A stretch of 64,000 bases of DNA from Secundilactobacillus kimchicus JCM 15530 (lineage in GTDB: Bacteria; Bacillota; Bacilli; Lactobacillales; Lactobacillaceae). Of this stretch, positions 54,704-64,000 are shown in pieces. The stretch lies in NCBI RefSeq assembly GCF_001433995.1, contig NZ_AZCX01000001.1:186001-250000 (forward strand). The letters run 5' to 3'. The translations under genes were made by a program, and so were the position numbers. The notes under the pieces were generated by a model. That model saw nothing but the letters and a program-made list of their open reading frames with translations, was not told where the DNA came from and searched no databases. Positions within the stretch are counted from its first letter, which is position 1, and each line of letters starts with the position of its first letter.

Positions 54704-55186
54704 ATGGATCGAACGCAACCGGTGGAGCTTGTTAACATGTGTATGATCATGGATCCGGCGACTCAAAAAGTTGTCGTTCAGGATAAGACGGACGTTGCCT
54801 GGAAGTTTGGCCACACTTTTCCCGGGGGCCACGTTGAGTTGGGCGAACCGATTGAGGCCGCTATGCAACGTGAAGTTTATGAGGAAACGGGACTCACCGT
54901 TTCTCAGTTACAGAGTTGTGGTCTGGTCGAATGGTTTGATCAACCGGCAGGCTACCGAAAAATTGGCTTTTTATTTAAAACTGATCACTTCACGGGTACC
55001 CTGAAACAAAGTGCAGAGGGCCGTAATTTGTGGTTGCCATTGTCAGCATTAAACCGTGACAACACGGCCGAAAGTTTCATGGAAATGTTGGCTATTTTCA
55101 CGGGTCAAGCAACTGTTGCTACGGCGACCATTATGAACGGACCGTTAACCCTGTCAACATTAGCCAATCAATGCGACGACAAGTAG
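54704..55186 (+). CDS. Nudix hydrolase
   Basis: 160-residue Nudix protein with a complete box GHVELGEPIEAAMQREVYEE plus TGL (GX5EX7REUXEEXGU). Resembles the MutT/8-oxo-dGTP diphosphatase group of lactobacilli, but the substrate cannot be assigned. Start ATG 54704 with GGAGG ten bases upstream; an in-frame ATG at 54695 touches the ribosome site. The 3' end overlaps the convergent CPBP gene by 27 bases. Confidence 0.9.
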   Translation: MDRTQPVELVNMCMIMDPATQKVVVQDKTDVAWKFGHTFPGGHVELGEPIEAAMQREVYEETGLTVSQLQSCGLVEWFDQPAGYRKIGFLFKTDHFTGTLKQSAEGRNLWLPLSALNRDNTAESFMEMLAIFTGQATVATATIMNGPLTLSTLANQCDDK

Positions 55187-55822
55187 GTCCCAAACGCTGT
55201 GCACAATAATGCCCGGCCACAAAGAATGAGAACGGACAAAAAGCCAGCCAAATAAGTAACCTAACAGGGCGACCATGACCAAATTGATGATCATAGTATT
55301 AACGGCAATTGACGGATAGGTGGTCAAGTATCGCGGAAGGTGAATGGCCGCAAAGAGTAGGGCTTGCAAGACCAACGCCCCCTGTTGTGACTTCATCAGG
55401 CGTAGCAAACGGTTTAAAAAGTAACCGCGAAAAACCGTTTCTTCGCAAAGTCCCACAATTAAGAAATCTTGAAAAACAAAACGCCACTGAAAGCTAGCCA
55501 CCAAACCAAGGTGGTGGTGCCGCACGAGCGCCGAAAAGATCAAATAACCGGTTAGGCCAATGAGCCACAAGTAGAAGGGTAGAAACGACCAGTTGGGCTT
55601 AAAGGGGCGTTCAACCGCTAATTTGGCACGAAAGCAAGCAATCAGTATCAGGCCGGCGCCGAGCCACATCGTGAGTTTAATCACATCCAGTAGCCCTTCT
55701 TCCAACCATCCGCCAGTTAGGTTTTTGATGGGTACATTGTAGAAAATTTGAATAATAAACCACGCTAGGAAAAAGTAACCATAGTGGGTCAAAACTTGCC
55801 GAAACTCTTGCCGGTTAGTCAT
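55160..55822 (-). CDS. CPBP-family intramembrane glutamic protease
   Basis: 220 residues, seven or so hydrophobic segments. Seen: EExxxR motif CEETVFRGYF, FAAIHLP and IVHSVWD, the three active-site motifs of Abi/CPBP (Rce1-like) proteases. In lactobacilli such genes are often linked with bacteriocin immunity, but no bacteriocin gene is near. Start ATG 55822 after GGAGG. Confidence 0.88.
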   Translation of the reverse strand: MTNRQEFRQVLTHYGYFFLAWFIIQIFYNVPIKNLTGGWLEEGLLDVIKLTMWLGAGLILIACFRAKLAVERPFKPNWSFLPFYLWLIGLTGYLIFSALVRHHHLGLVASFQWRFVFQDFLIVGLCEETVFRGYFLNRLLRLMKSQQGALVLQALLFAAIHLPRYLTTYPSIAVNTMIINLVMVALLGYLFGWLFVRSHSLWPGIIVHSVWDLLVVALIG

Positions 55823-55903
55823 TACAAAGCCTCCTGAAATGGTTTCAACTTAGTGTAACACGGGGCTGTCATGAAATTTAATTAAAAAAATGTTTCAAAC
55901 TCC

Positions 55904-55932
55904 TTTACTTACAAAATGTAAGTTGATATAAT
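55904..55932 (+). promoter_or_regulatory. Nitroreductase promoter with embedded palindromic operator
   Basis: -35 TTTACT (55904-55909), 17 bases, -10 TATAAT (55927-55932). A perfect dyad ACTTACAAAATGTAAGT (55907-55923) fills the spacer, the classic position for a repressor. The form recalls HxlR/MarR-type operators, and TACA-AAA-TGTA is one base longer than the lactococcal cop box TACANNTGTA. Confidence 0.7.
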
Positions 55933-55974
55933 ACTTTCTATACTTTTGAAAAAGACAAGCGAGGGATTACCAAC

Positions 55975-56577
55975 ATGAAAGAACAATTGATTGAATTAGC
56001 TCAGAACCGCCGTTCCATCTATGCATTAGGCCGTAACGTCGCCCAAAGTCAAGATGATATCGCCGACCTGATCAAGAAGGCTGTAAAAGTTGCACCAACG
56101 GCTTTCAACAACCAAACAACTCGTGCCGTTATCCTCTTTAACGACAAGCACGAACAACTGTGGGACATCGTAGCCGATCGTTTGAAGTCGGAAGTGCCAA
56201 ACGAAGAAGCCTACCAACGGACTTTACAAAAATTAAACGGCTTTAAGTCAGCCTTTGGGACAATCTTGTTCTTTACTGATATGGATGTTGTTCACCAGTT
56301 TGAAAACGATGCGCCACTCTACGCTGACAACTTTGCCGACTGGGCAGAACAAGGCCAAGGCCATGCAACATTTGCTGTTTGGACGGCTTTAGCTGAAAAC
56401 AGCATTGGCGCAAACCTTCAACATTACAACCCACTGATTGACGATCAAGTGGCCAAGGCCTTTAATATTCCATCTAGTTGGAAGCTTCGTGCGCAAATGG
56501 ACTTCGGTTCAATTGAAGCTGCTGCTGGTGATAAGGAATTCATGGACGACGCTGATCGTTTCAAAGTCTTAAAGTAA
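55975..56577 (+). CDS. Nitroreductase family protein (Frm2/CinD-like)
   Basis: 200-residue FMN-dependent oxidoreductase. Seen: N-terminal RRSIYALGR (FMN-binding Arg region), VAPTAFNNQTTRAV, and the late SSWKLRAQMDFG. Similar in form to L. lactis CinD, a copper- and quinone-responsive nitroreductase with catalase-like activity. Probably cytoplasmic detoxification of quinones, nitro compounds or peroxide. Controlled by the dyad in its promoter. Single-gene unit. Confidence 0.9.
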   Translation: MKEQLIELAQNRRSIYALGRNVAQSQDDIADLIKKAVKVAPTAFNNQTTRAVILFNDKHEQLWDIVADRLKSEVPNEEAYQRTLQKLNGFKSAFGTILFFTDMDVVHQFENDAPLYADNFADWAEQGQGHATFAVWTALAENSIGANLQHYNPLIDDQVAKAFNIPSSWKLRAQMDFGSIEAAAGDKEFMDDADRFKVLK

Positions 56578-56621
56578 ATTAACCCGCTGCTGTCCGACTA
56601 ACGGATGACATTCGGTGACAA

Positions 56622-56682
56622 GTTATCAACAAAAACGGGCAACCCCTTTTAATCACAAGGGTTGCCCGTTTTTGTTGATAAC
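56622..56682. repeat. Perfect 24-pair inverted repeat (terminator)
   Basis: Left arm 56622-56645 and right arm 56659-56682 are fully complementary across a 13-base loop; the right arm contains CGTTTTTGTTG. Lies between the nitroreductase and the FAD oxidoreductase genes; probably an intrinsic or 3'-stabilising hairpin. Confidence 0.75.
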
Positions 56683-56738
56683 CTGAGGCGTCAACTTTTC
56701 TAAGAATTGCTAACTTACCAGGTATTTCATCCAGAATA

Positions 56739-56747
56739 TGCTAGAAT
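56739..56747 (+). promoter_or_regulatory. Extended -10 promoter for FAD oxidoreductase gene
   Basis: TGCTAGAAT (hexamer 56742-56747), 32 bases before ATG 56779; no clear -35. Confidence 0.5.
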
Positions 56748-56778
56748 GAAACCAATGAAAATAAGTGGAGGGTGCAGT

Positions 56779-57891
56779 ATGAAGCAAAAGGTAGCCATCA
56801 TTGGTGGCGGCATCATGGGCGCAAGTCTAGCATATTTTCTCGGAACACTTCCCGGTGGCGAGCAAGTGGATGTCACCCTGTATGACTCAGGAATCGGTCA
56901 AGCCACATCAAATGCGGCCGGTATCATCTCACCGTGGCTGTCGAAACGGCGAAACCAACAGTGGTACCAGCTGGCTAAGGATGGTGCGACGTTATTAATT
57001 CAGTTGTCGCGTGAAGCCAATCTTAGTAACGATATTTATCAGCAGACGGGGACCATCGTGACCCGCAGTGATGAGGCGGACTTACAACTTTTACTGCAGA
57101 CAGCTCAAAGTCGGCAGCAAGATGCGCCTGATATGGGCACCATCGAGTTGTTGAGTGCCACTGACGTTCAGGAACGGATTCCGTTACTCACCCACGCGCA
57201 ACCGGGGATCTTTATCTCCGGCGGCGCCCGGATTGACGGTGCCGCTTTTGTGACCGAACTATTACGCCAAGCTCAGACGAAAAACCTCACCTTTCTCCCT
57301 GAACAAGTGACGTTAAATGCTACAGGTGATATCATCCGATCAGCTGGCATTAAGCACTTTGATACTGTTGTGGTGCTGGCAGGTGCGCGCACCGCGGATG
57401 TATTGAAGCCCCTCGGCGTTACCGCTAAAGTCCGGCCACAAAAGGGCGAACTCATTGAACTTAACGTTAAGGATTATCCGACCCTGGAAAACATGCCAGT
57501 CTTGATGCCAGAGGGGGAACGTGATTTTATCCCGTTCGGACATGGCAAACTGATTGTCGGTGCGACCCATGACGATGAAGGTGGCTTTGACCTGAGTCGG
57601 TCACAAGCCGTTGAAACGGATCTCTTGGCGAGTGCACAACGTTTTGACGCCGATCTGACAGCGGATAATATTGCCCAGGTCAAAATTGGGACTCGGGCCT
57701 ACACCGCTGACTTTGCCCCATTTTTCGGCCAAGTTCCGCAGCACCCAAACGTCTACGTAGCGTCGGGACTCGGGTCATCAGGTCTGACAACGGGGCCTGT
57801 CATTTCAAGGTTATTAGCTAATAAAATTTTGTACGGATTAGACGATAATTGGGGCCGTTATACGAAGCCCACGAACATCTACTTCGACTAA
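56779..57891 (+). CDS. FAD-dependent amino-acid-oxidase-like oxidoreductase (DAO family)
   Basis: 370 residues. Seen: FAD dinucleotide motif IIGGGIMGASLAY at the N terminus, ATSNAAGIISPW, and C-terminal SGLGSSGLTTGP. The DAO fold covers D-amino acid, glycine and sarcosine oxidases or dehydrogenases; the substrate is unknown. Start ATG 56779 after GGAGGG; the frame is open further upstream without a ribosome site. Last four bases overlap the convergent RNase H-like gene. Confidence 0.88.
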   Translation: MKQKVAIIGGGIMGASLAYFLGTLPGGEQVDVTLYDSGIGQATSNAAGIISPWLSKRRNQQWYQLAKDGATLLIQLSREANLSNDIYQQTGTIVTRSDEADLQLLLQTAQSRQQDAPDMGTIELLSATDVQERIPLLTHAQPGIFISGGARIDGAAFVTELLRQAQTKNLTFLPEQVTLNATGDIIRSAGIKHFDTVVVLAGARTADVLKPLGVTAKVRPQKGELIELNVKDYPTLENMPVLMPEGERDFIPFGHGKLIVGATHDDEGGFDLSRSQAVETDLLASAQRFDADLTADNIAQVKIGTRAYTADFAPFFGQVPQHPNVYVASGLGSSGLTTGPVISRLLANKILYGLDDNWGRYTKPTNIYFD

Positions 57892-58283
57892 TGTAGCTGG
57901 TGGAGGGCCTGTAAAGACAAAGTATGAGCACCCATGTTTTGCTTTTCAGGGACCCAGTTTGTGACCACCAGCCCAAATTGTTGTTGGAGGGCCAAAATGT
58001 TATCAACCAGTTCTTGATAATGTTTGGCGTATTGCTTATTGAGACTGTCTGCCACCAATTGACTATCCGTATAGTATAAAACAGTCGCTTCGCCGGGCGC
58101 GTTTACCCGTTGTTGAAGCGCCTCAAATCCAGCAATCGCTGCTTTGAATTCAGAGTGATGGTTGTCGCCATCGGGTAACGGTTCTTTTAATTGAGTCTGG
58201 TGACCGTCATGAAGGATCAAGATGCCAGCGGCACTTTTCAACGTGGTGCTGTCCGTTGCCGCATCCGTATATAGTGAATACAC
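57888..58283 (-). CDS. RNase HI-like protein with His at the fourth acidic site
   Basis: 131-residue RNase H fold of the stand-alone bacterial RnhA-like group. Seen: catalytic Asp7 (YTDAATD), Glu45 (HSEFKAAI), Asp73 (YTDSQLVAD). The fourth position, normally AD, reads AH (His120). Start GTG 58283 (VYSLYTD) with GGAG eight bases upstream. Likely cleaves RNA in RNA-DNA hybrids if active. Confidence 0.82.
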   Translation of the reverse strand: MYSLYTDAATDSTTLKSAAGILILHDGHQTQLKEPLPDGDNHHSEFKAAIAGFEALQQRVNAPGEATVLYYTDSQLVADSLNKQYAKHYQELVDNILALQQQFGLVVTNWVPEKQNMGAHTLSLQALHQLH

Positions 58284-58314
58284 AAAATCAACTCCAAGAA
58301 AGGGATGTAAGACT

Positions 58315-58713
58315 ATCATAGCCCAAAAACGTCAATTTTTATATCAGCCCGGCCCTTTAATGAGTATTATTCTCTGGAGCTGGACTTTAATCGTCTTACT
58401 ATTAGCCATTATCATTGCACTCGAAGTACAGCCGCAGTTACTCTGGCTGCCTTGGGTGCTGGGATTATTCTTCGTGGCCCTGACGTGGGCACAAATCCAT
58501 TACCGCCATATTTATTTAGAAAATGGGGTTGTGCGAGTTAGTCGCGTGATGAATCACCAATGGGTGCTCATCAATCTCCACGACGTCAAAAATGTTCATG
58601 CTTCCAAATACCGCTTAGGTTTCATCTATGGCGGTAAAATTTATTCATTTATGCTACCGGCTAATTCGGTCATTGAAATTGTTAACTTAATTGAACAGGC
58701 ACAAGTTGATTAA
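58315..58713 (+). CDS. EbsA-like membrane protein, possible non-ATG start
   Basis: About 132 residues: YQPGPLMSIILWSWTLIV then two membrane segments (about residues 15-60) and a C-terminal PH-like beta domain (YLENGVVRVSRVMNHQW onward). Resembles lactobacillar EbsA-family proteins. Homology starts near IIAQKRQFLYQPG. No ATG, GTG or TTG lies there; AAAGGG at 58300-58304 precedes ATC 58315 / ATA 58318, so a non-standard start is possible. The only upstream ATG (58222) lies inside the opposite-strand RNase H-like gene; the next downstream is 58360. Confidence 0.7.
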   Translation: MIAQKRQFLYQPGPLMSIILWSWTLIVLLLAIIIALEVQPQLLWLPWVLGLFFVALTWAQIHYRHIYLENGVVRVSRVMNHQWVLINLHDVKNVHASKYRLGFIYGGKIYSFMLPANSVIEIVNLIEQAQVD

Positions 58714-58738
58714 AGAATAAGAATAAGAATAAGAAGGA
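58714..58738 (+). repeat. Hexanucleotide repeat (AGAATA)3 before fhs
   Basis: Three tandem AGAATA units (58714-58731) run into AGAAGGAG, the fhs ribosome site. Slipped-strand change in unit number would not alter the ribosome-site-to-start spacing but would lengthen the leader. Confidence 0.8.
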
Positions 58739-58748
58739 GTGCATTTAA

Positions 58749-60410
58749 TTGAACGATATCGAAATCTCCCAAGCCGCAGTGATGAGCCCCATTCAAGATA
58801 TTGCCGACCAACTTGATTTAAACGGTGATCAGATTGAACCATATGGGGCTGTCAAGGCCAAGATTAAATTACCTGTTGCTGGTCATCCCATTGATCAAAG
58901 CCATTTAATTCTTGTCACCTCCATTAACCCAACGCCAGCTGGCGAGGGGAAATCAACCGTGACGGTAGGGCTTGGGGATGCGCTCAAGCAAATCGGCAAG
59001 AAAACCGCCATTGCCTTACGCGAACCATCCCTAGGCCCCGTTATGGGACTTAAAGGTGGTGCAACCGGTGGTGGTTACGCTCAGGTGGTTCCGATGGAAG
59101 ATATCAACCTGCACTTTACCGGGGATTTTCATGCGCTTACCGAAGCGCACGACACGCTGGCAGCTTTAATCGACAACCATATCCAGCAGGGGAATGAACT
59201 TAATCTTGACCCGCGCCAAATTATCTGGAAACGGGTTTTAGATATCAACGACCGGGCCTTGCGTCAAACCGTCATTGGTTTAGGCGGCCGAACTTCAGGG
59301 GTCCCGAGACAGGACGGCTTCGATATTACGGTTGCTAGTGAATTGATGGCTATCCTTTGTTTAAGCCGCAATCTCAGTGACTTAAAACAGCGTATTAGTC
59401 AAATCGTCATCGGGTATACTTATGATAAACAACCTGTGACCGTGAGCGATTTAAAAGTGGCCGGTGCGCTAACCGTTCTGCTTAAAGACGCGATTAAGCC
59501 TAACCTTGTTCAAACCCTAGACCACACCCCGGCAATTATCCACGGTGGGCCATTCGCCAACATTGCCCACGGTTGTAACTCCGTTTTAGCAACCGAAACG
59601 GCTTTGAAACTGGCTGATTATGTTGTCACAGAAGGCGGGTTCGGAGCTGACCTGGGTGGCGAAAAATTTATGGATATTAAAACACCTGTATTGGGTAAGA
59701 CCCCCGATGCAGTGGTGTTAGTGGCGACGGTTCGAGCCCTAAAATACAACGGTGGGGTTCCTAAAGATCAATTGGAAACTGAGAATTTAGCGGCTCTCCA
59801 AGCTGGCGTGGTCAACTTACACCGTCACGTGAGAAGCATGCAACAATATGGTGTCCCCGTTGTCGTGGCTGTCAACCGATTTACCTCCGATACCGATCAA
59901 GAAATCCAGTTTTTAATTGATGATTGCCGTGATACGCTTGGGGTTAACGCGTTTGACACCACGGTGTGGGCGCATGGCGGCCAGGGGGCAACCCGACTTG
60001 CTGAGGCTGTCGTGCAAGCGGCTGATCAACCAAGTACTTTCAAGCCACTGTATGAGCCACAAGCCACCTTGACTGATAAAATGAACGCCATTGTCACTAA
60101 AATATATGGGGGGCGCAAGGTCGTGTTAGAGCCCAAGGCCGCACGCCAACTTAAAACGTTTGCGGCTAACGGATGGGATCACTTGCCTGTCTGCATGGCC
60201 AAGACCCAGTATTCCTTATCAGATGATGCCAAAAAACTGGGAGCACCGGCTGATTTTGACATTCATGTGCGCGAACTGGTTCCTAAGTTGGGAGCGGGCT
60301 TTATCGTGGCATTGACTGGCAACGTTCTCACAATGCCAGGATTGCCAAAGCACCCAGCTGCTCTTGACATGGACATCACCGAAGACGGGACGATTACCGG
60401 CCTGTTTTAA
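58749..60410 (+). CDS. fhs: Formate-tetrahydrofolate ligase
   Basis: ATP-dependent synthesis of 10-formyl-THF from formate and THF, for purines and fMet-tRNA. 553 residues. Seen: [20 protein letters not shown] (P-loop), [19 protein letters not shown], and [15 protein letters not shown] start 58749 after AAGGAG. Terminator follows. Confidence 0.97.
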
Positions 60411-60426
60411 CCAAATTCACCACGAT

Positions 60427-60451
60427 AAACCGGCAGTCTTGCCGGTTTTTT
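60427..60451 (+). terminator. fhs terminator
   Basis: AAACCGGCA / GTCT / TGCCGGTTT followed by T to 60451. Confidence 0.9.
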
Positions 60452-60459
60452 GGTACAAT
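60451..60459 (+). promoter_or_regulatory. Extended -10 promoter of lspA-rluD-pyrR-carAB
   Basis: TGGTACAAT directly at the end of the fhs terminator T tract, 33 bases before lspA. Confidence 0.55.
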
Positions 60460-60491
60460 AATGTGATAAACAAAGGGAGCGGGAATTTGAT

Positions 60492-60938
60492 ATGTTATGG
60501 TTTTTAGCGTTAGCAGTTATTCTAGTGGGCCTGGATCAGTGGGTGAAGGCTTGGATTGCGAGCCACGTCTTATATGGCACGACTCAAGTGGTTTTGCCCG
60601 GGATCTTATCACTAACTCACATTCACAACGATGGCGCTGCTTGGAGTATGTTGGCTGGGCAACAGTGGCTGTTTACAGTCGTTTCAGTTATTGCGTTAGC
60701 CGTGCTGATTTGGTTCTTTTTTAAAACGCGCTGTCAGTGGGCTTACAGCTTGGGGTTAACTTTAATGATTGCCGGTACGTTAGGTAACTTCATTGATCGA
60801 CTCCATCAGGGATTCGTTGTTGATATGTTTCAACTCGATTTTATCAATTTCCCGATTTTTAACGTTGCCGACATGTGTTTAACAGTGGGTGTGATCTGGC
60901 TGCTAATCGTGATTTTTAGAGACGGGGACCGGGGGTGA
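60492..60938 (+). CDS. lspA: Lipoprotein signal peptidase (signal peptidase II)
   Basis: Membrane aspartyl protease that removes lipoprotein signal peptides. 148 residues, four membrane segments. Seen: first catalytic Asp in GNFIDRLHQGFVVDM and the second in FNVADMCLTVG; N-terminal LDQWVKAW. Followed after four bases by rluD, the common Bacilli lspA-rluD-pyrR order. Confidence 0.96.
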   Translation: MLWFLALAVILVGLDQWVKAWIASHVLYGTTQVVLPGILSLTHIHNDGAAWSMLAGQQWLFTVVSVIALAVLIWFFFKTRCQWAYSLGLTLMIAGTLGNFIDRLHQGFVVDMFQLDFINFPIFNVADMCLTVGVIWLLIVIFRDGDRG

Positions 60939-60942
60939 ACCA

Positions 60943-61857
60943 TTGACTGAGACAACTCACTTTACCATTACAACCGAGCAGGGGCGCATCGACAAGGTGC
61001 TTGAGACCCTGATGCCGAACCAAAGTCGGTCACAGCTTAAACAAGCAATTGAAGCAAAACTGGTGCGGGTCGCAGACCACGCCGTTAAGCCCAGCTATCG
61101 GGTGGCTAGTGGCGACGTCATTACCGTGACCATTCCTGATCCGGTCGCCCTTGACCTCGAAGCTGAAGACATTCCCTTAGACATTGTTTATGAGGACGAA
61201 GATGTGATCGTCGTCAATAAGCCGGCAGGAATGGTGGTGCACCCATCAGCCGGCCATCCCAACCATACGCTGGTTAATGCGTTGTTGTACCATTCGCCAC
61301 TTTCGACAATTAACGGGACTTTCCGGCCCGGAATTGTTCATCGGATTGATAAGGATACCTCCGGGCTACTGATGGTCGCTAAAAACGACCATGCTCATCA
61401 GAGCTTGGCTAAGCAACTCAAGGACAAGACAAACCTGCGCGAGTACATTGCGCTGGTTCACGGTGTGATTAAACAAGACACTGGTACCATTGATGCCCCA
61501 ATTGGCCGATCACCAAAGGATCGCAAAAAACAGGCGATTGTCGCGGATGGTCGGCATGCGGTCACGCATTATCGAGTGCTTGAACGGTATTTGAACTACA
61601 CGCTCATCCTGTGCTGGCTTGAAACGGGACGGACCCATCAAATTCGAGTTCATATGAAGTCTATTGGCCATCCACTCGCGGGCGATCCCTTATACGGACC
61701 AAGAAAGACGATTAATGGCTCCGGCCAATTTCTACACGCTGAAAAACTTGGTTTTAAGCATCCAACAACCGGTCGTCAACTGGTTTTCGAAGCGCCATTA
61801 CCGGCTGATTTTCAAAAAGTCATCAAACGCTTAGAAGCACAGCAGAGCCCGAATTGA
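60943..61857 (+). CDS. rluD: RluD-family 23S rRNA pseudouridine synthase (YlyB)
   Basis: 304 residues: N-terminal S4 RNA-binding domain (about 10-75, RSQLKQAIEAKLVRV) and pseudouridine synthase domain with catalytic Asp in RIDKDTSGL and ETGRTHQIRVH. TTG start 60943 with GGGGGTGA. The exact uridine set is not deducible. Confidence 0.95.
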   Translation: MTETTHFTITTEQGRIDKVLETLMPNQSRSQLKQAIEAKLVRVADHAVKPSYRVASGDVITVTIPDPVALDLEAEDIPLDIVYEDEDVIVVNKPAGMVVHPSAGHPNHTLVNALLYHSPLSTINGTFRPGIVHRIDKDTSGLLMVAKNDHAHQSLAKQLKDKTNLREYIALVHGVIKQDTGTIDAPIGRSPKDRKKQAIVADGRHAVTHYRVLERYLNYTLILCWLETGRTHQIRVHMKSIGHPLAGDPLYGPRKTINGSGQFLHAEKLGFKHPTTGRQLVFEAPLPADFQKVIKRLEAQQSPN

Positions 61858-61858
61858 C

Positions 61859-61877
61859 AAATCAAGGCGATTTTTTT
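61859..61877 (+). terminator. Weak hairpin before pyrR
   Basis: AAATC / AAGGC / GATTT followed by T; only five weak pairs, so a doubtful terminator. Confidence 0.3.
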
Positions 61878-61913
61878 AAGCTAGGTTTATGAGATTTTAT
61901 TTCTAGGAGGTAG

Positions 61914-62453
<540 letters not shown>

Positions 62454-62477
62454 CCAATTCAGATTGGATTGATGGAA

Positions 62478-63551
62478 ATGACACAACGGTATTTAATCCT
62501 GGAAGACGGGAGTGTATATGCGGGAAACGGGTTTGGTGCAGGGGCCACAACGACAGGTGAGATTGTCTTTAACACGAGCATGGTCGGTTATCAAGAGGTC
62601 GTCACCAACCAAATCTACCACAATCAAATCATTGTTTACTCCCAGCCCATTATCGGTGCCACGGGAATCAGCCATGATAGCTACGAATCAATTTTACCCA
62701 CGGCTAAGGGGATGGTAGTACGCGATGTCGCAACCATTTCTAAAAACCGGCAACGTTCATTGTCGCTGGATCAATTTCTAAAGCAACATAATATTCCAGG
62801 TATCAGCGACGTGGATACCCGGCAATTAATTCGGAAGCTGCAAAGCGTTGGGACCATCAAGGGCAGCATTGTTGATGTGGCCGACGACCATGCGTTTGAT
62901 CAACTTCATGCAACGGTGTTAACAAATCAGCAGGTTGCCCAAGTTGCCACACCAAAGCCATATCCCAATCCGAACACTGGGTATAATGTCGTGGTTATTG
63001 ATTTTGGCCTTAAACACGGCATTTTACGACAATTGTCACAGCGTCACTGTAATGTGACCGTTTTGCCTTGGAATGCTGATGCTCAGGCAATCATAAGTCT
63101 TGATCCGGATGGCGTCATTTTATCCACGGGACCTGGTTCGCCCCTAGATGTACCAGAATCTGTACTGGAAATGGTCCGCACCATCCAAGAACGGATTCCG
63201 TTATTTGCCGTTGGTCTGGGGCACGAGCTTTTCGCGCTGGCCAATGGCGCCTCGATGACGCGATTGGGGACCGCACATCACGGGCCTAACCACCCAATTC
63301 GCAAAATTATTACTAATGACATTATTTATGCTGAGGAGGCCCAGGAGTACGTTGTTGACAGTGAAACGGTCGATCGAAACCGACTAATTACAACGTATTT
63401 GGATCTCATCGACGGTAGTATTCAAGGGTTGCGACACCGGGATTATCCGGCTTTTTCCGTTCAATTTTTCCCGGACGGCGCGCCTGGACCTCATGACTCT
63501 GTTGACTTATTTGACGAGTTTATGGAAATAATGGGGACACGAGAGGGGTAA
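62478..63551 (+). CDS. carA: Carbamoyl-phosphate synthase small subunit with lost glutaminase active site
   Basis: 357 residues. The N-terminal CPSase_sm domain (about 1-130: RYLILEDGSVYAGNGFG, GYQEVVTN, VDTRQL) and a C-terminal class-I GATase fold (about 168-350) are both full length. The nucleophile motif GxCxGH reads AVGLGHE: Gly (codon 63213-63215) replaces the catalytic Cys. The catalytic His of QFHPE is Phe (codon 63468-63470, QFFPDG); the Glu is Asp. The glutamine-binding NHG segment reads EAQEY. So glutamine hydrolysis should be impossible, while structural parts (AHHGPNHP, PGPHDS, DFGLKHGIL) persist. The reading frame is intact, so not a simple pseudogene. Start ATG 62478 chosen (alternatives TTG 62469, ATG 62472; weak ribosome sites). 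One base separates it from carB. Confidence 0.9.
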   Translation: MTQRYLILEDGSVYAGNGFGAGATTTGEIVFNTSMVGYQEVVTNQIYHNQIIVYSQPIIGATGISHDSYESILPTAKGMVVRDVATISKNRQRSLSLDQFLKQHNIPGISDVDTRQLIRKLQSVGTIKGSIVDVADDHAFDQLHATVLTNQQVAQVATPKPYPNPNTGYNVVVIDFGLKHGILRQLSQRHCNVTVLPWNADAQAIISLDPDGVILSTGPGSPLDVPESVLEMVRTIQERIPLFAVGLGHELFALANGASMTRLGTAHHGPNHPIRKIITNDIIYAEEAQEYVVDSETVDRNRLITTYLDLIDGSIQGLRHRDYPAFSVQFFPDGAPGPHDSVDLFDEFMEIMGTREG

Positions 63552-63552
63552 C

Positions 63553-64000
63553 ATGGCTAACGACATTCAAAAAATTCTGATTATTGGCGGTGGGCCAACC
63601 GAAATTGGCCACGAAACCGAGTTAGACTCGGGAACCGTCCAAATCATTCAAGCGTTTCAAAAGCTTGGTATTCGCTCACTTTTAATTGATAATAACCCGT
63701 TTTCGGTGGCCCTAGAGTCTGTCCAGCCGACGAATATGTTTATTCAATCGGTGACCACCGAAAACGTCACTCGAATTATTGAACGCGAACAGCCGGATGC
63801 TATTTTACCCACAGCCGGCGGTGTCTCAGCCATCAGCGTCTGTCAAGAATTGCAGGAAACTGGGGTATTAGCTGAAAACAACGTTCAATTGCTGGGCATC
63901 CCGTCTGAGTCGCTCAGTGTAATTAATAACCCAGAACGCATTAATGCCGTTTTGGCCCAAATGAACCTGCCAGTCATTGAATCTGAGTCGGTCGGAACGT
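63553..64000 (+). CDS. carB: Carbamoyl-phosphate synthase large subunit, divergent, 3' part beyond window
   Basis: 149 residues of about 1060 visible. The pre-ATP-grasp start is recognisable (KILIIGGGPTEIGHETELDSGTVQ, LPTAGGVSAIS) but departs from usual CarB in ways seen by eye. GxGPIxIGQ is GGGPTEIGH, EFDYSG lacks a residue (ELDSG), NSNPAT is NNPFS, and GGQTALN is GGVSAIS. A conserved Arg (PERI) at the ATP-site region persists. ATP-binding, carbamate and IMP/UMP-binding regions lie outside the window. It follows carA by one base, so they are coupled. Confidence 0.85.
   Translation, partial: MANDIQKILIIGGGPTEIGHETELDSGTVQIIQAFQKLGIRSLLIDNNPFSVALESVQPTNMFIQSVTTENVTRIIEREQPDAILPTAGGVSAISVCQELQETGVLAENNVQLLGIPSESLSVINNPERINAVLAQMNLPVIESESVGT

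Follow-up and report, generated by a model that had tools for sequence, protein, structure and literature searches.

The 64,000-nucleotide window from Secundilactobacillus kimchicus JCM 15530 (the whole stretch of DNA analysed) carries, directly downstream of pyrR, a CarA-like gene and a CarB-like gene whose products have lost the catalytic residues of carbamoyl phosphate synthetase (CPS). We refer to the two as pCarA and pCarB, and to the pair as pCarAB. The pair is predicted, with near certainty, to be inactive as a CPS. It is an enzyme homologue that has lost its catalytic residues and is kept by selection, and hence a putative pseudoenzyme. Tentatively, we favour the reading that pCarAB is a pseudo-CPS complex with a regulatory role linked to PyrR.

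Genomic context of pCarAB

The unit lies among genes on the same strand (Table 1). The gene called rluD here encodes a product that scores above the cut-off of TIGR00005; its score against the RluD model is below that model's cut-off. Complete pCarB extends beyond the end of the window and has 840 aa (L003:3554-6076, corresponding to G000:C1:249553 onward). It is followed on the opposite strand by an RqcH/EfbA-like gene, the best NCBIfam match of which is under the cut-off. On the far side of pCarB, tetrahydrofolate riboswitches (RF01831, above the Rfam cut-off) were observed in two genera, at L138:1087-1187 (-) and L140:9646-9740 (-).

Table 1. Genes and pCarA motifs in the window; residue equivalents are numbered as in E. 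coli CarA
Feature	Position	Strand	Remark
fhs (formate-tetrahydrofolate ligase)	58749..60410	+	frequent neighbour of the unit
lspA	60492..60938	+	conserved neighbour
rluD (RluA-family pseudouridine synthase)	60943..61857	+	conserved neighbour
pyrR	61917..62453	+	sole PyrR gene found in the genome
pCarA	62478..63551	+	CarA-like small subunit of 357 aa that lacks the glutaminase residues
Nucleophile elbow AVGLGHE	63213..63227	+	GGT 63213-63215 (Gly) at Cys269; GAG 63225-63227 (Glu) at Gln273
EAQEY segment	63339..63347	+	GCC CAG GAG (Ala-Gln-Glu) at Asn311-His312-Gly313
QFFPDG	63468..63476	+	TTC 63468-63470 (Phe) at His353; GAC 63474-63476 (Asp) at Glu355
pCarB	63553..64000	+	CarB-like large subunit, first 448 bases in the window; both kinase sites lost

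Loss of glutaminase residues in pCarA

The initial annotation, made from the window alone, had described an intact carA frame in which three glutaminase motifs read AVGLGHE, EAQEY and QFFPDG, and had counted at least three substitutions behind the Cys and His changes. Codon-level alignment with E. coli CarA (from NC_000913) bore out all of this: the frame is unbroken from ATG 62478 to the stop codon at 63549-63551 (the mechanical ORF begins at TTG 62469 and gives 360 aa), the three motifs are as read, and one base change for Cys to Gly plus two for His to Phe make three. In addition, Ser47 is replaced by Ile; Lys202, Gly241, Gly243 and Leu270 are retained.

Across 77 aligned pCarA rows, which count one genome twice (L072 and L166), position 269 is Gly in every row and position 273 is Glu in 76. 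His353 is absent from all 77, being replaced by Phe in 65, Ser in 10, Leu in 1 and Asn in 1. Cys269 or His353, the residues by which a glutamine-dependent CPS is recognized, is thus retained in no pCarA row. All 18 canonical CarA sequences in the same alignment retain Cys, Gln and His. A further 18 canonical pairs all have Cys269, Gln273 and His353 together with Glu299 and Arg303 of the large subunit; at the other sites these pairs depart from the canonical residue only twice, with a Gln at 313 and a gap at 129. Judged from these alignments, neither chance nor decay is enough to account for the residue loss in pCarA.

An alternative Cys/His pair was also sought by conservation, and none was found. 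The sole conserved Cys corresponds to E. coli position 214; it is present in 67 of the 77 rows, is the only Cys in more than 60% of them, and is Cys in E. coli as well. The window pCarA passes two NCBIfam cut-offs for CPS small subunits (429 versus 221 and 354 versus 307 bits), so that automatic annotation will probably name it as an enzyme. The AlphaFold2 model of this protein was poor (pLDDT 64.8, pTM 0.57) and hence was not used.

Loss of both ATP-grasp sites in pCarB

Because the window ends inside pCarB, the dead large subunit had escaped the earlier reading. Relative to E. coli CarB, pCarB of this genome carries Arg129 to Pro, Arg169 to Lys, Gln285 to His, Glu299 to Lys, Asn301 to Thr and Arg303 to Tyr; Glu215, Gly241, His243 and Arg306 are still present. 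Among 76 pCarB rows, the first ATP-grasp site retains Glu299 and Arg303 in none, Arg129 in 1 and Asn301 in 8, and position 299 is Lys in 73 and Arg in 3. The 17 canonical CarB sequences in this alignment keep Glu299 and Arg303. Other residues of the first pocket, namely Lys/Arg at position 169, Glu215, Gly241 and His243, are mostly retained in pCarB. In the second ATP-grasp site, none of Arg715, Gln829, Asn843 and Arg845 is retained in any of the 76 rows (position 715 is a gap in this alignment; in a different one, of 14 rows, it is occupied by Thr or Ala).

The second half of the protein is also shortened. In 34 selected pCarB rows, gaps take up 69 of the 82 columns of the second ATP-grasp lid (E. 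coli 675-756), with the placement of the deletion varying between alignments, and all 140 columns of the allosteric domain (E. coli 934-1073); L079 was omitted from the pCarB alignments. Pfam finds one CPSase_L_D2 stretch in pCarB versus two in the genome's other CarB, and both NCBIfam large-subunit cut-offs were failed by all three pCarB proteins tested. The AlphaFold2 model of pCarB from L. brevis CD0817 was good (pLDDT 84.6, pTM 0.88). Chain A of 1a9x, the large subunit of E. coli CPS, was its best PDB match, with 26% identity and a TM score on the query of 0.88. According to this model, pCarB retains the CPS fold.

In human CPS1, the nucleophile has been lost and the enzyme is ammonia-dependent, with a synthetase half that still works. 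The initial annotation had proposed that the window CarA belongs to such an ammonia-dependent synthetase, and the missing glutaminase residues are indeed what it has in common with CPS1. All 76 pCarB rows have lost the kinase sites, and a canonical pair exists elsewhere in the genome. Loss of the glutaminase together with both kinase sites excludes this proposal at the level of sequence, and we give it hardly any chance.

A canonical CPS elsewhere in the genome

The presence of a second, canonical carA/carB had been suggested as a check, and such a pair is found on another contig (C12), with intact catalytic residues and scores above the NCBIfam cut-offs. Its CarA falls outside the pyr-operon type on the CarA tree, in a group (100/98) that we take to be the arginine type; no arg gene was seen beside this carA. 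The working CarB (L004:6170-9241) has 1023 aa and no separate Pfam allosteric domain, and its NCBIfam matches end at about residue 965. The same contig carries an 831-aa frame (L004:52-2547) in which a hydrophilic C-terminal part comes after about 550 residues of repeats rich in Leu, Pro and Gly; this frame is either a real gene or an antisense artefact.

Distribution, origin and selective constraint

Within the genus of the window, pCarB is present in 15 of 15 genomes, in one of them in pieces. Of the 79 best-matching loci from named records, 46 are of the pCarAB type: 14 from Secundilactobacillus, 1 from Lentilactobacillus kribbianus and 31 from Levilactobacillus or unclassified Lactobacillus. 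Levilactobacillus brevis ATCC 14869 (L081) carries the locus. In the family as a whole, pCarB occurs in at least 139 of 251 Lactobacillaceae genomes and in 20 of 40 genera; this is a lower bound, as the matches listed reach about E 4e-143 and one genome (G019) appears only in the order-wide search. The pCarB class was assigned by open frame and coverage, and the genome lists for overlap counts were compiled by hand. Outside the family, no pCarB is among the listed matches in 295 genomes of the order (E up to 1e-135, a limit at which a more diverged pCarB would be missed); the matches listed there are to CarB frames of full length, about 1058-1103 aa. The question raised earlier of whether the change is clade-wide can thus be answered in the affirmative, with pCarB in 20 of 40 genera and near-fixed replacements in the aligned rows.

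A CarA tree was built with 34 of the 77 pCarA sequences (the window, 30 fetched and 3 named). All 34 form a single group (100/100) within the pyr-operon type (98/85), and the closest sequences are some of the family's own PyrAa proteins, with less support (88/93). We read pCarAB as an old paralogue that arose when a pyr-operon CPS was converted, once and long ago, in its ancestral position on the chromosome, as judged by comparison with the gene order of B. subtilis.

pCarA and pCarB are adjacent in all 46 named and all 30 fetched loci, and both are under strong constraint. By the Nei-Gojobori method, restricted to pairs with dS of 0.05-1.5 and with upstream extensions left untrimmed in some frames, median dN/dS was 0.012 (6 pairs) and 0.020 (211 pairs) for pCarA, 0.018 (1 pair) and 0.030 (46 pairs, highest 0.088) for pCarB, and 0.042 (12 pairs) and 0.019 (1 pair) for canonical CarA and CarB, respectively. 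The impression given in the initial annotation that the subunit is maintained is thereby upheld: the ratios reflect strong purifying selection and no pseudogene decay. We accordingly consider it extremely improbable that these genes are pseudogenes on their way out or products of sequencing or assembly error. Lost catalytic residues and a shortened second half would suit such an origin, and broken copies do exist (split frames in L079/G013 and one stop in G173), but the latter sit in assemblies of at least 120 contigs, and elsewhere frames are open in 20 genera, dN/dS is 0.012-0.030 and the replacements themselves are conserved.

Persistence in genomes without the pathway

Of the 251 family genomes, 211 were found to have PyrB and 207 the C-half of canonical CarB, the latter counted as any match at E 1e-25 or better, fragments included (as in G008). 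Among the 139 pCarB genomes, PyrB was not detected in 24 and the canonical C-half was not detected in 28; neither was detected in 22. In G008, residues 1-234 of carA abut residues 782-1019 of carB (L207:4967-6387), so that one internal deletion has cut the canonical pair; pyrR-pCarA-pCarB is intact in this genome.

These genomes bear on whether pCarAB serves a real CPS as a regulator or decoy subunit, with pCarA or pCarB pairing with canonical CarB or CarA. The retained CPS fold and the 111 of 139 pCarB genomes that match the canonical CarB C-half are compatible with such pairing. The 28 genomes without this match, the intact pCarAB beside the cut canonical pair of G008, and the maintenance of pCarA and pCarB as a pair all argue against it, and we regard it as quite unlikely. 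An obligate partnership with a real CPS was down-weighted on the same evidence.

PyrR-type RNA elements were found in 13 of 14 searched genomes that lack PyrB and keep pCarB; six are above the Rfam cut-off and two are weak (G008, G072). NCBIfam families identify the genes behind two such elements (L233, L237) as nucleobase transporters, and others look permease-like by eye. PyrR therefore still has work in these genomes. Conversely, up to 89 genomes (an upper bound) have PyrB and canonical CarB and no listed pCarB, indicating that PyrR control does not require pCarB.

Association with PyrR

pyrR is directly upstream of pCarA in all 46 named records and in 25 of 30 fetched loci, or 71 of 76 together. 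In the 30 fetched loci, from 19 genera, rluD is always upstream of the unit, with pyrR in between in those 25; the five loci without an adjacent pyrR all belong to two genera (codes g3 and g6; g-numbers denote genera throughout). Four searched genomes without pyrR beside pCarAB have PyrR at another place (G016, G055, G089 and G140). PyrR also occurs in genomes without pCarAB, and three genomes (G122, G083 and G217) have one PyrR beside pCarAB and a second in the pyr operon. On a PyrR tree with weak basal support, 22 of 27 PyrR proteins encoded beside pCarAB are separate from those of pyr operons (80/77, weak), and 5 of 27 fall on the pyr-operon side.

In the genome of the window, PyrR-type RNA elements precede pyrB-pyrC, a uracil-permease-like gene and pyrF-pyrE, and none was found before the window's pyrR-pCarAB with Rfam or a hairpin model. 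In an Rfam scan of window positions 55000-64000, the only matches were to microRNA families, below threshold, and fell on a hairpin near 56600-56700. This strong hairpin (56602-56698), which draws several such families below their cut-offs on both strands, is probably a terminator or a small palindromic repeat.

The hairpin model (41 bases) was derived from 25 PyrR elements away from pyrR-pCarAB loci and run on 77 loci, 76 of them with pCarAB, covering 1.02 Mb (L055, L079 and L162 left out). At E up to 0.1 it gave eight matches, each just upstream of a pyrR. Three are at canonical pyr operons (L150, L167 and L161). The remaining matches lie between rluD and pyrR at 5 of the 76 pCarAB loci, in four genera that do not include that of the window: L149 (28.9 bits, g20), L252 (25.5, g5), L148 (22.4, g38), L157 (21.3, g19) and L147 (21.0, g38). 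Three of these five are weak (E 0.03-0.07, the E-values being rough), and the L252 element is also matched by Rfam at 40.9 bits, below the cut-off. With this 41-base model no hairpin was found at 71 of 76 pCarAB loci, and with Rfam at its cut-off a PyrR element was found in 0 of 10.

We also considered that pCarAB is a pseudo-CPS with a role unrelated to PyrR, such as new chemistry, a scaffold, or storage or sensing of another metabolite, and that its position was inherited from an old pyr operon. The unit persists without an adjacent pyrR in 5 of 30 fetched loci and in 24 genomes without PyrB. Moreover, in some genera (L161, g33) pyr-operon genes are found at the same lspA-rluD position, so that the pCarAB neighbourhood may be a relic. 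Set against this are the arrangement pyrR-pCarA-pCarB in most loci, even where a second PyrR is in the pyr operon, and the PyrR-type hairpin at some of these units. We hold a role unrelated to PyrR to be a serious contender, though on the whole a doubtful one.

Discussion

Of the two readings that the initial annotation offered, an ammonia-dependent CPS fell with the large subunit, and a regulatory or scaffold protein fits what we found: the unit is clade-wide, under purifying selection, kept without the pathway and mostly linked to pyrR. The sequences themselves show that both subunits have lost catalytic residues, that the pair has a single origin, is under constraint and is encoded by adjacent genes, and that it is frequently linked to pyrR. 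In the reading that we tentatively favour, a pyrimidine-type (pyr-operon) CPS lost its glutaminase and the two kinase half-reactions on one occasion, early in the history of the family, leaving a two-subunit pseudo-CPS that retained the CPS fold and is maintained for a job other than carbamoyl phosphate synthesis. The remodelled first ATP-grasp pocket of pCarB might bind a nucleotide or another CPS ligand without turnover, and pCarAB, acting as a sensor or adaptor, might tune PyrR or the pyrimidine-uptake genes that PyrR controls. The fuller version, in which the whole synthetase was converted once, early in Lactobacillaceae, into a PyrR-partner metabolite sensor for pyrimidine and perhaps also bicarbonate, is conceivable and, as it stands, rather unlikely.

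As a candidate for controlling PyrR at the protein level, pCarAB is open to experimental test. If the sensor reading is true, it would be an unrecognized protein arm of pyrimidine sensing that outlives its pathway of origin. As a family-wide two-subunit pseudo-CPS kept also in species that have lost the pathway, it offers a clean natural case of a metabolic enzyme becoming something else. Models built on such names to describe what lactic acid bacteria need in the way of pyrimidines, arginine and CO2 would count this non-working synthetase as an enzyme.

We know of no account of PyrR with a CarAB-like partner, and none was found in the open-licence literature. Pseudoenzymes are a known kind; a family-wide CPS with both subunits dead did not appear in searches of the open-licence literature, which is no proof of its being undescribed. 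Nor did the literature searched, PMC3582564, PMC7839403, PMC9963975 and PMC10609543 among it, show an account of dead or truncated CarAB in lactobacilli.

With the bacterial glutamine-dependent CPSs (E. coli CarAB and the pyr-operon CarAB of Lactobacillales), pCarAB shares two subunits, the domain order of the first half, the fold and pyr-type descent. It differs from them in lacking the glutaminase nucleophile and His, the ATP-grasp sites, most of the second lid and the allosteric domain. Human CPS1, which is among the structural matches of the L. brevis pCarB model, resembles pCarAB in the loss of the glutaminase; unlike CPS1, with its working synthetase half, pCarAB has lost the synthetase half too. 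Compared with the PyrR attenuation system (PyrR and RF00515), the PyrR gene precedes pCarAB in most loci, and the hairpin is found in 5 of 76. Finally, PMC3582564 describes a second PyrR in Lactobacillus plantarum, PyrR2, reported to answer to inorganic carbon; some of the present genomes likewise have two PyrR proteins, the second being encoded beside pCarAB.
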